Below are positions 2,057 through 40,297 of a stretch of DNA of 64,000 nt, one piece after another. Under the pieces are notes generated by a model, which saw only the letters and a list, made by a program, of their open reading frames with translations, ran no database searches and had not been told where the DNA came from. The stretch lies in assembly GCA_016194935.1 (NCBI GenBank), contig JACQAO010000022.1, forward strand, positions 1 to 64,000, in the 5' to 3' direction. This DNA is from Betaproteobacteria bacterium (lineage in GTDB: Bacteria > Pseudomonadota > Gammaproteobacteria > Burkholderiales > Rhodocyclaceae). How positions within the stretch are numbered: position 1 is the stretch's first letter; the number at the start of each line of letters is the position of its first letter. The position numbers were made by a program, and so were the translations under genes.

Positions 2057-3117
2057 AGGCTGCGAACTTGTCCGCTGGCCTGACTACCGAACTCGCCCCT
2101 GAAGACGCCTTGCGCCTGCATGTGTTGCTGGCGGGCGGCGTGCAGGCGATCCGCCTGGATGAGTCGGCGCCGGCGCTGCATGCCTTGACCGAGCGCGGCG
2201 AGGCGAAGATTTCCCTGCATCCGAACTGCCGCGCGGAGCAATACCTGATGCGGGTGCGCGAGTTGCTGGGCGGCCATGCGCTCGGCTCTCCCGGCGGCTA
2301 TCCGGTGCACCTGCGGCGCTGGACGCGCATGGGACAAGCCAGCCCAAAAAGTCTTGAGGCCATGTTGTTGCTGGGCGAAGCAGAGGCGGTGGTCGCCGTC
2401 GCGCATACGCAAGGGCTCACGGACGAACTGGCGCGGCGTGTCTGGTGGATACAACCGAGCTTCGAAGTGGCCCGCGCCATGCTCGCCCACCCGGGCGTGG
2501 CGCGCGGAACCATGGCCAGGACCCTGGCCGATTACCTGATCGAGCATCTGCCTTTTGTGGAGGATCCGCTCGTCGCATTGAACGGCGTGCGCGCGGTGTT
2601 GGCGGCCGGGCAACCCGATGCGGCAGGGCGTCAGGCGTTGTGGCAAAAAGCCAAGCGGCGGCCGCATTATTTCGTCGGATTTCTTGAGTCCCTGCCGGAC
2701 GCACTGCCCGGAGACCTTCCGGCACGTCCCTGCGACGCAGCGCTGACGGCCCTGGCTGAAGCCGGCAACCTCTGGGCCAGACAGTTGCGGCGGGCGTATT
2801 CCGCCAGCGGCCAGAGTTTTCTTAAAGCGGCGGAATTGGCCCTGGAAAAACCGGCGGTGCCGGATGCCGTGTATGCGTTGCTGGACGCCATCGGCGCCTG
2901 GTGCGCGCCGCTGAACGTGGCGGAGGGCCGTGCGCAACTTGTCACCACCTTGCCCGAACAGGCGCCTGCCGTGGGGGCGCTGGCGGTGCTGGCGGCCACA
3001 CGCGCCAGCGATGCAGAACCCATTCTCACCCGCAGCAGCGCAGTGGGGCCGCATATGCGCAAGAAACTCGAACCGTTGATTGCACCGCTGCTGAACCAGC
3101 TCAGAGCTCTACAATAA
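2053..3117 (+). CDS. DsrS-like cytoplasmic protein
   Basis: A soluble 354-residue protein without signal peptide or recognisable catalytic motif. From memory it resembles proteins annotated 'sulfur reduction protein DsrS', which lie in or near dissimilatory sulfite reductase clusters of sulfur oxidisers; this name needs a search. I chose TTG at 2053 because it overlaps the previous stop (TTGA) and has an AGGA about 10 bases upstream. An in-frame GTG at 2029 is an alternative, and everything further upstream is shadow of the VWA gene. The MoxR-VWA-DsrS linkage suggests one functional unit. The stop codon lies inside the first unit of the downstream repeat array. Confidence 0.6.
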   Translation: MKAANLSAGLTTELAPEDALRLHVLLAGGVQAIRLDESAPALHALTERGEAKISLHPNCRAEQYLMRVRELLGGHALGSPGGYPVHLRRWTRMGQASPKSLEAMLLLGEAEAVVAVAHTQGLTDELARRVWWIQPSFEVARAMLAHPGVARGTMARTLADYLIEHLPFVEDPLVALNGVRAVLAAGQPDAAGRQALWQKAKRRPHYFVGFLESLPDALPGDLPARPCDAALTALAEAGNLWARQLRRAYSASGQSFLKAAELALEKPAVPDAVYALLDAIGAWCAPLNVAEGRAQLVTTLPEQAPAVGALAVLAATRASDAEPILTRSSAVGPHMRKKLEPLIAPLLNQLRALQ

Positions 3118-3184
3118 ATACCCAATGGGCATAAATGCTCCAGCGAGCATAAATACCCTAAAGGGCACAAGTACCCGATGGGAG
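3114..3184 (+). repeat. Array A: four 17/18-nt palindromic tandem units
   Basis: Four head-to-tail units: 3114-3130 (loop AAT), 3131-3148 (loop CAGC), 3149-3166 (loop TAAA) and 3167-3184 (loop GAT). The typical unit is ATAAATACCC-loop-GGGC; CCC pairs with GGG around a 3- or 4-nt loop. In the second unit both arms change together (GCTC/GAGC), so pairing is kept. The array starts at the stop codon of the preceding gene. There are no spacers, so this is not CRISPR, and the mixed 17/18-nt period excludes a repeated peptide. Confidence 0.9.
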
Positions 3185-3223
3185 CGCTGAGCAAGTCCTT
3201 CGGTCGTCGAACTACGTGCGGAA

Positions 3224-3511
3224 TCAACCCATCCTTTTTGGCCATTTCCGGGCGGTATGAAATACGCGCAAGATTTCAACAGCACTACCACGAATCCGAT
3301 AAGGGAGGATATAGGGGAACTGAGTGACTATCAGCTCGCGCGTCCCGGTAATACGACCGGGACGCCCCATGTTAGGGTGATCCGCGAGCATTTCCGCACT
3401 TGCGAGCAGATGGCGCGCAAATTCCGACGCCATCCGGGGACTATCCTTGGCGATGTACGTAGCTTCCTGGTCAAGATTTTCCAACGCTCGGCGTAGCCAG
3501 TTAACCTGCAT
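3224..3511 (-). CDS. ParE/RelE-superfamily toxin
   Basis: A 95-residue protein with the ParE plan: an N-terminal helix pair (WLRRALENLDQEATYI), the central 'HPNMGRPGRITGTREL' segment and a C-terminal 'FPYILPYRI...EILRVFHTARKWP' strand region. ParE toxins usually poison DNA gyrase and other members of the superfamily cleave mRNA; which applies here cannot be told. The antitoxin gene lies immediately upstream and overlaps by 11 bp. The pair runs against the surrounding operon and is bracketed by two repeat arrays, which points to recent insertion. Confidence 0.88.
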   Translation of the reverse strand: MQVNWLRRALENLDQEATYIAKDSPRMASEFARHLLASAEMLADHPNMGRPGRITGTRELIVTQFPYILPYRIRGSAVEILRVFHTARKWPKRMG

Positions 3512-3737
3512 ATTTCTTCACGATGGCGGCTACTTCTTCGGTCGACGCGAAGTCTCCAGCATCGGCTTCCTTGATCGCCTGCTGAATTTCCCCGACCTGC
3601 CATGCTTCCAGGTCAAGGTACTGCCGAATGGCTTCTCCAGCCAAGTAGGATTTGGTGCGGTGCGTGGCATCAGCCAGCCGATCCAACTGATCTTTTATTT
3701 CTGCGGGAACGCGCAAAGTTAAGGTTGCTGTGCTCAT
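3501..3737 (-). CDS. Ribbon-helix-helix antitoxin (ParD/CopG type)
   Basis: A 78-residue protein starting at the internal ATG (MSTATLTLRVPAEI); the N-terminal beta strand TLTLRV followed by two helices is a ribbon-helix-helix DNA-binding fold. The C-terminal tail (about residues 45-78) would wrap the toxin. It precedes and overlaps the ParE-like gene, the normal antitoxin-first order, and should autorepress the pair. An in-frame codon 30 bases upstream could extend it, but that extension is not conserved-looking. Confidence 0.85.
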   Translation of the reverse strand: MSTATLTLRVPAEIKDQLDRLADATHRTKSYLAGEAIRQYLDLEAWQVGEIQQAIKEADAGDFASTEEVAAIVKKYAG

Positions 3738-3970
3738 GGCGAATACCTTGTAGTAGTATGTACACATTGAATGGTAGCTTACTTCTTCTGCGCCTCTGGC
3801 GCAAACCGGCCTTCAGACTGCATGCGTGGCTGCGGATGTGCGGGTCTTGTGCGAGGACTGCCTGAAATGCGCGAGTGTTCCACGCTGGGTGCTGGTGGAT
3901 TCGCCGAAGAAGAGCGCAAAATGGAATACAAAATCCCCGATGGAACTGCACCAGCAGCACAGCCGACCCT
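3738..3970. other. Intervening sequence with no confident gene
   Basis: This stretch separates the antitoxin start from repeat array B and should hold the toxin-antitoxin promoter near 3738-3775 (minus strand). A small dyad TGCGCC-TCT-GGCGCA lies at 3789-3803. A plus-strand frame (3826-4026) reads through to array B and ends inside it; it has no convincing start signal or recognised homology and may be a gene fragment or chance. Confidence 0.4.
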
Positions 3971-4092
3971 ATGAATGCCCTAAAGGGTACAAGTACCCTA
4001 TGGGCATAAATACCCGCCGGGCATGAATACTCCAGCGAGTATAAATACCCTAAAGGGCACAAGTACCCAATGGGCATAAATACCCGCCGGGC
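3971..4092 (+). repeat. Array B: seven 17/18-nt palindromic tandem units
   Basis: Units at 3971-3988 (loop TAAA), 3989-4005 (TAT), 4006-4022 (GCC), 4023-4040 (CAGC), 4041-4058 (TAAA), 4059-4075 (AAT) and 4076-4092 (GCC). They have the same orientation and consensus as array A. The CAGC-loop unit again has altered but complementary arms, here ACTC/GAGT. Positions 4041-4068 match 3149-3176 of array A base for base. The last unit ends directly before the ATG of the next gene at 4093. Confidence 0.9.
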
Positions 4093-4335
4093 ATGAAAGG
4101 CGGCATCACCCTCGACGACGAGACGCAACTGGTGCGCGAGCATTTTGCCGTGGTGCAGGCACGCAAGCCAGGGCGTCAGCGTTTTGCCGAAGACTGCGTT
4201 GAGGTGGTCGCCTCCGAAGCCCTGGCGCGCGAACGCGCCAGGCCGGCGGCAGGCCTGCATGCCGCGCGAGTGGCGGGGCCGTCGCGTTCTTCCGAAGGCG
4301 TAAGGTTGTATTATCTGGTGTACTGGCTGGAGTGA
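4093..4335 (+). CDS. Small conserved-looking hypothetical protein
   Basis: An 80-residue soluble protein with no motif I can name; it has no transmembrane segment or cysteine cluster. The ATG follows immediately after the last unit of repeat array B, and no purine-rich ribosome-binding site is visible in the repeat-derived leader, so translation may have been weakened by the insertion. The next gene starts 3 bp after its stop, so it belongs to the downstream operon. It is probably a real gene of the MoxR/DsrS-like cluster. Confidence 0.6.
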   Translation: MKGGITLDDETQLVREHFAVVQARKPGRQRFAEDCVEVVASEALARERARPAAGLHAARVAGPSRSSEGVRLYYLVYWLE

Positions 4336-39004: not shown

Positions 39005-39142
39005 GAGCGCACCTCCTTTGAAACTGGCTTACAACAGGCGGCGATTGTACCGCATCCACCTGACTGAAAGGTGTGACAGGCAACCTGTTAATATACGCAA
39101 TCCGATCTGCTTTTGCCAAACCTGTTTCCGACACACACTTCC

Positions 39143-40297
39143 ATGCGCGCGCCCAACCCCGACAGAATGACCCCGGCGGAATTGCGCGCCGGCGCCTCGC
39201 TGGCGGCTATATTTGCGTTGCGCATGCTGGGCCTGTTCCTGATCCTGCCGGTTTTCGCCGTGTATGCCGGGATCGCCTCGGATCGCTATGGCCGCAAGCC
39301 GGTGATCGTCTTCGGCCTGCTGCTGTTTGCATTCGGCAGTCTGGTGGCCGCGCTGGCACCCGACATCTGGTGGATCATCGCCGGGCGCGTGCTGCAAGGC
39401 GCGGGGGCGATTTCGGCGGCGGTGACGGCGCTGGCCGCCGACCTCACCCGCGAACAGCACCGCACCAAAGTGATGGCGATGATCGGCGCTTCGATCGGCC
39501 TCACTTTCGCATTGTCTCTGGTGGCGGCGCCGTTGATGTATGCGGAGATCGGCATGGGCGGAATTTTCACCCTGACCGGCGGGCTGGCTCTGGGCGCCAT
39601 CGTGCTGTTGTACAAGGTGGCGCCGGCAGCGCCGGCTATGGTGGCGCGCGGAGTGGACGTGCCATTCTCCTCGGTGCTGCTGGACGGCCAGTTGGCGCGG
39701 ATGAATTTCGGCGTGCTGGCGCTGCACGCCATGCAGACAGCATTATGGGTGGTGGTGCCGGCAGCGCTGGTGCGTTCCGGCGGACTGCCGCTGGCCGAGC
39801 ACTGGAAAGTCTATCTGCCGGCGGTGCTGGCTTCGTTTGTGCTGATGCTGCCGGCCATCATTATCGCCGAGCGCTATAACAAAACCCGTTTGATATTCAG
39901 CGGCGCCATCCTGCTGTTGTTGCTGGTGCAAGCCGGTCTCTATGCTTACGGCACGGGTCTGTACCCTCCGGGGCACAAGTACCAGATTGGCGTGTGGCTG
40001 ACGCTGTTCTTCGTCGGCTTCAATATCCTGGAGGCAATGCAGCCCTCGCTGATTTCCCGCATCGCCCCGGCGGCGGCGAAAGGTGCGGCGCTGGGGATAT
40101 ACAATACCACCCAGTCGCTCGGTTTGTTTCTCGGCGGAATACTGGGCGGCTGGCTGGGGAAGAACTACGGAGAGCCGGCGGTGCACCTGTTTTGCGCCGC
40201 GCTGGCGTTGATCTGGTTGGCGCTGGCGGCAACCATCAAACCGGTGCAGCCGCGGTCAACCGCGACGACGGCTGACACGTTGGCAACACAATACTAA
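39143..40297 (+). CDS. YajR-like MFS transporter lacking transmembrane segment 2
   Basis: A 384-residue major facilitator with clear similarity to YajR-type proteins (MTPAELR…[17 protein letters not shown] at the start; the SDRYGRKP motif [27 protein letters not shown]). Between VFAVYA (residue about 42) and [10 protein letters not shown] the family normally has about 30-35 residues (loop plus TM2, ending IPFG). Here they are absent, with the frame kept. Loss of TM2 should break the 12-helix fold, so the protein is doubtful even though the rest is well preserved. Start could also be ATG 39167. Confidence 0.8.

Follow-up and report, generated by a model that had tools for sequence, protein, structure and literature searches.

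Among the described systems of short palindromes in bacterial DNA, the repetitive extragenic palindromic (REP) sequences are among the closest to the repeats considered here, and most of them fall into two classes, GTAG and CGTC, according to the available part of a survey of these elements (PMC3733652). The same part of the survey reports that head-to-tail dimers of REPs are absent, under-represented or negligible, that intragenic copies occur, that CGTC REPs have no associated transposase, and that the GTAG-1 REPs of Thauera, with stems of 5 bp, occur in clusters and as arrays next to genes (PMC3733652). In the present analysis, a 64,000-nucleotide stretch of DNA from a betaproteobacterium of the Rhodocyclaceae (contig JACQAO010000022.1 of assembly GCA_016194935.1, positions 1 to 64,000 of the forward strand; hereafter the window) was found to carry two arrays, A and B, of very small palindromic units in head-to-tail order. 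On balance, these arrays are read as copies of a minimal mobile palindromic repeat, whose single-strand hairpin would be moved in trans by a REP-like process, and we hold this to be slightly likelier than even. This reading is favoured because the repeat recurs in records of several phyla, has loop lengths typical of most of the genomes that carry it, has kept both its pairing and a strand-specific wobble, and is inserted exactly, in multiples of the unit. The family adds a scattered and apparently undescribed variant to the REP-like repeats.

The arrays of the window and one isolated unit lie at the following positions.

3114..3183, + strand: array A, four units at 3114, 3131, 3149 and 3167, with loops AAT, CAGC, TAAA and GAT
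3971..4092, + strand: array B, seven units at 3971, 3989, 4006, 4023, 4041, 4059 and 4076, with loops, in order, TAAA, TAT, GCC, CAGC, TAAA, AAT and GCC
39113-40297: open reading frame (ORF) like that of a major facilitator superfamily (MFS) transporter, gene name given by eye
39962..39979, + strand: single twelfth unit of 18 bp, TACCC-TCCG-GGGCA-CAAG, in frame in the MFS-transporter-like ORF

The initial annotation had counted eleven tandem palindromic units (four plus seven) in head-to-tail order, and a grammar scan of the 64-kb window returned the same 11 units on the + strand and none on the other, against a mean of 0.08 units, and never two in tandem, in 60 dinucleotide shuffles of the window. 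Unit lengths of 17 or 18 nt were also as described, given the loops of 3-4 nt in the window. The inner arm pair was C-G in nine units and T-A in two, with 0 mismatches; the fourth unit of array A ends in GGGA instead of GGGC. With the default score, Tandem Repeats Finder detected array B and missed array A. The twelfth unit, at 39962-39979, had escaped the initial annotation. Both arrays contain a common higher-order block (CAGC, TAAA, NAT, GCC) of ~70 nt, and they probably derive from a single array. The covariation of arms that had been proposed from two sites (3137-3148 and 4029-4040) holds as far as the pairing is concerned, but not as two separate events, because the two CTC/GAG units have the same CAGC loop and occupy the same place in the ~70-nt higher-order repeat; they probably reflect one original change followed by a later G-C/A-T double change.

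The anatomy of the repeat was counted on 75 arrays parsed in 55 assemblies, from 80 loci of the family. Five of these loci (L096, L103, L132, L151 and L152; L numbers denote loci) may represent coding repeats or chance matches, and they stayed in the counts. The unit is a stem-loop of 13-24 nt (TRCCC-loop-GGGYA) plus a tetranucleotide YNAR, 17-27 bases as a whole, and the general form (TRCCC-loop-GGGYA-YNAR)n runs head-to-tail in the arrays that were printed and inspected by eye. Loop length ranged from 3 to 14 nt overall and was constant within 73 of the 75 arrays, and eight of the 11 assemblies with more than one array had a single loop length, such as MGXK01, with 3 nt at each of five loci, and WFXD01, with 7 nt at each of five. 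Conserved hairpin pairing, as claimed from the window, was borne out, and more strongly than the window alone could show: the outer bases of YNAR, beside the centre of the palindrome, were T-A in 43, C-G in 36 and other in 6 of 85 distinct assembly/palindrome pairs (79/85 for the two pairs together), and one of the same two pairs was found in 9/9 palindromes of the window. This covariation gave a Fisher p of ~1e-19 on the 82 pairs fitting a 2x2 table, with relatedness ignored; the search patterns had fixed the central Y, A and R of two or more palindromes in each locus and left only the Y-R pairing free. In 75 of the 85, the next pair outward was a conserved non-Watson-Crick wobble that reads C.A or T.G depending on the strand. 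Strand orientation was picked by this wobble, and the Watson-Crick pairs seen at this position (10/85) would have counted against it.

The strand with the T.G wobble reads GGGTA-YTNR-TGCCC. Among 222 palindromes, a count restricted to those having the T.G wobble, the YTNR centres were TTTA (85), CTTG (68), TTCA (19) and others (50), and the first and fourth loop bases are paired in 219. In the nuclear magnetic resonance (NMR) structure of a DNA minidumbbell, TTTA adopts a type II tetraloop in which bases 1 and 4 are paired, base 2 lies in the minor groove and base 3 is stacked, according to the available part of that report (PMC8037738); the YTNR loops (TTTA, CTTG and others) resemble DNA type II tetraloops. 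Folding as DNA was stronger on the wobble strand than on the other strand for array B (z -4.78 vs -2.72), array A (-2.51 vs -1.46) and L087 (-3.52 vs -1.41); the 27-bp array L111 folded weakly (-1.34 vs +1.01), and the 14-mers on their own were barely stable. No Rfam 15 family matched at its gathering score over array B (LOOT reached 19 bits vs 46.4, and mir-786 reached 19.1 vs 93).

Further loci, which the initial annotation had proposed to look for, are present both in the genome that contains the window and in its relatives, and their arms still pair there. In the own genome (G000; 3.43 Mb in 103 contigs, 90% complete), units occur at ~18 loci by our tally over several pattern scans, including prlC (twice), argH, MFS-like, nasA-like and helicase-like genes, an IS3 transposase gene, the starts and stops of several genes, and the promoters of prfB and argS. 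The names of prlC, argH and the toxin-antitoxin genes described below come from scans, and those of the MFS, nasA, IS3, prfB, argS, S4 and helicase genes were given by eye. Two additional matches to TACCCTCTGGGG (G000:C69:77227 and G000:C86:19896) are probably more units. Within the genus, the pattern GGGYAYNARTRCCC-N{2,20}-GGGYA gave 13 matches in G000, 16 in G002, 14 in G003 and 16 in G001, a total of 59 in four genomes vs 0 for the reversed pattern. Units are mostly 18 bp in G000 and mostly 27 bp in its relatives (13-nt loop, roughly YAGAANCAACTGC). In G003, the 27-bp unit lies inside a longer, similar dispersed repeat (GAAGCGCCCCG ... GAGCGCAGCGAGCA ...) at L287-L295, L305 and L307, and may hitchhike in this larger element; in G357 (L297-L303), the unit is found within another dispersed element (CAGTTGAGCCTAC ... 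TAATGCACTCAATCTACAGG).

Beyond the genus, a strict short-loop pattern matched in 4 of 297 family genomes, the control giving 1 match in another genome, and of 377 class genomes, 3 had matches, 13 in all with G000 accounting for 10, vs 0 for the reversed control. Sixteen carrier genomes searched with a single-unit pattern gave 221 matches vs 5 for its reverse. A scan with one genome per species returned 96 stretches, of which 80 were taken on as loci and used for all counts on named genomes. The titles of these records, from which phyla were taken and many of which are metagenome assemblies, are mostly gamma- or betaproteobacterial, and also include Desulfobulbaceae, Lachnospiraceae, Chloroflexi and others. 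Contamination is argued against in a Lachnospiraceae assembly (G361) and a Desulfurivibrio assembly (G360), because each has several loci with the same loop length. Four arrays in different assemblies (L080, L086, L099 and L149) have similar neighbours (ssb, uvrA and a nucleotide-sugar dehydratase, by eye), which suggests an old shared site. In proteobacterial assemblies, two of them titled Thiobacillus, the arrays L115, L140, L145 and L158 lie in the same flagellar-gene region. A blastn search of a plasmid collection with 161 bases of array B gave no match, BLAST being weak for such repeats, and five hits in viral contigs were one repetitive sequence (four contigs) and one degenerate pair, with no array of this kind. 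Six 14-mers had no full-text literature match (subscription papers and preprints lay outside this search), nor did a set of descriptive phrases; a further search of the literature listed REP, REPIN and unrelated papers.

Comparison with orthologous sites that lack the repeat showed how precisely it can be inserted. The 18 bp at 39962 in the MFS-like gene are in frame and missing from the orthologues in G001, G002 and G003 (3/3). In argH, exactly 36 bp (2 x 18) have been added in frame compared with G001 and G003, and no unit was found in 7/7 other genomes, five of which are more diverged. An 18-bp insert in the IS3 transposase gene at C65 adds a stop codon and is missing from the one homologue compared, that of G003. 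In prlC, G000 has an in-frame insert encoding (APEGIY)n, G002 has a shorter insert in the same position, and the site is empty in 6/8 genomes. The mixed period had been said to rule out a repeated peptide, which is correct for the two arrays and incorrect elsewhere in the same genome, since the 18-nt form in prlC encodes such a peptide. Arrays lie right at the -10 box of prfB in G000 and G003, with none in 5/7 genomes, and at the -10 box of argS in G000 alone, with none in six other readable genomes (G073 was unreadable); several relatives carry GGTATAAT at the prfB and argS sites. Right next to the argS array (L017, 1430-1500), small hairpins of other sequence (TCTTCGGGTGG, TTCTTCGGGTAGC) follow one another. 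Many target sites read R/TR (the slash marks the insertion point), and no clear target duplication was seen at the compared insertion sites. A 4-bp target duplication was considered by eye; argH and the window could fit it, and prfB and argS do not.

At the window, the arrays separate two genes that overlap in three related genomes. The features at this junction are as follows.

3115..3118, + strand: first tetranucleotide TAAA, in which the upstream ORF ends (stop codon TAA, 3115-3117)
3224..3511, - strand: ParE/RelE-type toxin between the arrays, a passenger (PF05016, E 1e-16; TIGR02385)
3501..3767, - strand: ribbon-helix-helix antitoxin between the arrays, a passenger (PF01402, E 7e-7)
4093..4097, + strand: end of array B, GGGC-A-TGAA, in which the downstream 80-aa ORF starts (ATG, 4093-4095)

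The upstream gene was found in 5/61 genomes, G000 included. In three of the others (G011, G021 and G031), it overlaps the next gene as ATGA and there is no array, and in the fourth (G104) it has a different neighbour. The G000 junction reads ...CAATAAATACCC (array A, toxin-antitoxin, array B) GGGCATGAAAGG, and both genes thus keep a codon. Insertion at an overlapping stop/start with both codons kept is clear for the window compared with G011, G021 and G031, and is plausible by eye for L284 and L285, which, like L278, are single units at TGA/../ATG or start codons. Since the overall enrichment is weak (long-ORF stops lay at or in arrays for 22/64 vs 21% at random positions of the same loci, a crude count), such insertions are given as examples and not as a rule. 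The toxin-antitoxin module (3190-3965) is missing at the junctions of G011, G021 and G031, and arrays may act as landing sites.

Other known repeats resemble the present ones only in part. CGTC REPs are likewise short dispersed palindromes of several phyla with intragenic copies and no associated transposase gene listed, and they differ in their CGTC tag, stems of 8-9 bp, loops of 4-5 nt and head-to-head dimers, as far as the available part of the survey describes them (PMC3733652). In contrast, the repeats here have no CGTC tag, a 5-bp stem plus wobble, loops of 3-14 nt and head-to-tail order; four arrays (L084, L085, L088 and L122) lie inside elements that look CGTC-REP-like by eye. Rickettsia palindromic elements (RPEs) are also palindromes inserted in genes, but RPE-1 is longer, and RPE-4 and RPE-6 are CGTC REPs in the same source (PMC3733652). 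CRISPR arrays contain unique spacers, whereas the loops between palindromes here are identical or similar within an array, in agreement with the claim that CRISPR-like spacers are absent (no search for cas genes was made). For the window site, the nearest parallel is offered by the mycobacterial interspersed repetitive units (MIRUs), which Supply, in 1997, reportedly described as tandem repeats that are inserted in operons where the stop and start codons of adjacent genes overlap. MIRUs are ~46-101 bp long, thus longer than the repeats here, are restricted to one genus and are not hairpin arrays.

The favoured mechanism would start from a single strand, GGGTA-YTNR-TGCCC, as the recognised form, folded into a hairpin with a type II-like tetraloop, and the conserved G.T wobble would make its recognition strand-specific. 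A putative trans-acting enzyme, working on single-stranded DNA as in IS200/IS605 and REP systems, would insert one unit or n head-to-tail units, mostly at R/TR-like sites and with no clear target duplication, and arrays would then grow and become homogenised by unequal exchange or slippage. At the window, the repeat would have entered the overlapping stop/start junction in such a way that both genes kept a codon; the array is now split by a toxin-antitoxin module. In IS200/IS605 transposition (PMC8266576, in its available part), TnpA recognises a single-strand hairpin and insertion takes place 3' of a fixed tetranucleotide, with no target-site duplication. Such a process would suit the present repeat, and the covariation of the hairpin and the exact insertions fit it. 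Unlike IS200/IS605 elements, however, the repeat here is only 17-27 bp, has no transposase inside and no linked TnpA, and the expected strand bias was not seen.

Several observations weigh against this reading. Loop length varies in 3/11 assemblies with more than one array (DBNZ01, JAITKU01 and DGVV01), the T at loop position 2 was partly built into the search patterns, and targets are not uniform (A/GG in argH and in REP-like sites). The empty sites come from other species, not from the same strain, and nasA, yfcE, surA-pdxA and S4 were uninformative among six orthologue alignments, being too diverged or ending before the insertion. A Y1 transposase (PF01797) gave no match in 7/16 carriers, G000 included, some of these genomes being incomplete, and at none of the 30 Y1 loci examined (of 34 matches) was there a unit within up to ~1.5 kb. 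Among 124 array-adjacent ORFs (of 146; 22 frames of the array itself or from chance-looking loci were excluded by hand), no Pfam family occurred in more than three and no mobile-element family appeared among the first 25 of 234. The expected replication-strand bias, judged by GC skew, was absent as well: the wobble strand was the G-rich one in 29/74 named loci (binomial p 0.08, t-test p 0.04, in the opposite direction) and in 9/18 other loci.

A rival reading is an enzyme-free origin, in which a nascent TACC- or ATGA-like end would anneal during replication to an array elsewhere, copy one or more units and return, while intrastrand quasi-palindrome correction keeps the arms complementary. Template switching of this kind is a serious rival because several targets have 3-6 nt in common with the unit, namely ATGAA at the window, TATCC in the MFS-like gene and, in several of the relatives, GGTATAAT at the prfB and argS sites. 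It requires no transposase, and none was found in the scans of carriers and neighbouring ORFs: an all-against-all comparison of ORFs, taken from around 80 array loci and from positions up to 9 kb in the window, revealed no recognisable mobile gene among the 40 clusters listed, and the recurrent clusters around arrays were ordinary neighbours. However, the same core and wobble recur across several phyla, for which chance copying within a genome cannot account, and the insertions in the IS3 gene and argH are exact with only 1-2 nt in common; we put the probability of template switching at roughly one chance in four. Local slippage, which the initial annotation had named as the outcome that would undo its own claim, fits the higher-order duplication within arrays A and B, but is ruled out as a full account by the dispersed copies, with ~18 loci in G000 and many units in other genomes, and it is hardly credible that the arrays are a slippage product of no wider meaning.

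Selection for a string of hairpins at the window, as put forward initially, is not needed, because mobility explains the arrays better, the units being dispersed, precisely inserted and tolerated in coding genes. More generally, it is improbable that the arrays are selected functional sites at each locus, either binding sites of a dimeric protein or RNA hairpins controlling neighbours. The 14-bp palindrome GGGYAYNARTRCCC with constant spacing in 73/75 arrays, the arrays adjoining the -10 boxes of prfB and argS, the prfB array common to G000 and G003 and the recurrence of similar array neighbours across assemblies would all suit such sites, but units are in frame within prlC, argH, MFS-like and nasA-like genes and have broken an IS3 gene, orthologous positions are mostly empty, the neighbouring genes have no common function, and covariation inside the palindrome indicates pairing rather than independent half-sites. 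Still less probable is a GTAG-type REP family moved by a REP-associated tyrosine transposase (RAYT, TnpA-REP). The two are alike in size, in a single-strand hairpin with variable loops, in strand asymmetry or a conserved mismatch, in clustering and in peptide-encoding intragenic copies, according to the parts of the sources available (PMC3733652, PMC8266576); the Thauera GTAG-1 REPs, compared by description and not by consensus, have the same 5-bp stem and form arrays by genes (PMC3733652), and some Y1 gene was present in 9/16 carriers. Against this, the junction here is YTNR with no GTAG/GGAG tag, units follow one another in direct tandem without flanking DNA, no Y1 gene is linked (0/30 Y1 loci have an adjacent unit) and 7/16 carriers have no Y1 match.

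Going beyond mobility itself, it is possible, at rather less than even probability, that the repeats form a third large REP-like class, neither GTAG nor CGTC, in which 17-18 bp would be the smallest precisely mobile unit, defined by a YTNR tetraloop hairpin with a conserved wobble. Most genomes would have loop lengths characteristic of them, and the class would extend across several phyla and be moved by a putative enzyme acting on single-stranded DNA. If the reading as a mobile hairpin repeat is true, mobile DNA of 17-27 bp would be small enough for one copy to enter a working protein in frame, or an overlapping stop/start, with neither gene broken, which raises the question of which enzyme, if any, moves it. 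The YTNR tetraloop, its covarying ends and the conserved wobble would then provide a structural rule that could be used to find the family elsewhere, and this rule may underlie repeat peptides that have lacked an explanation, such as (APEGIY)n.

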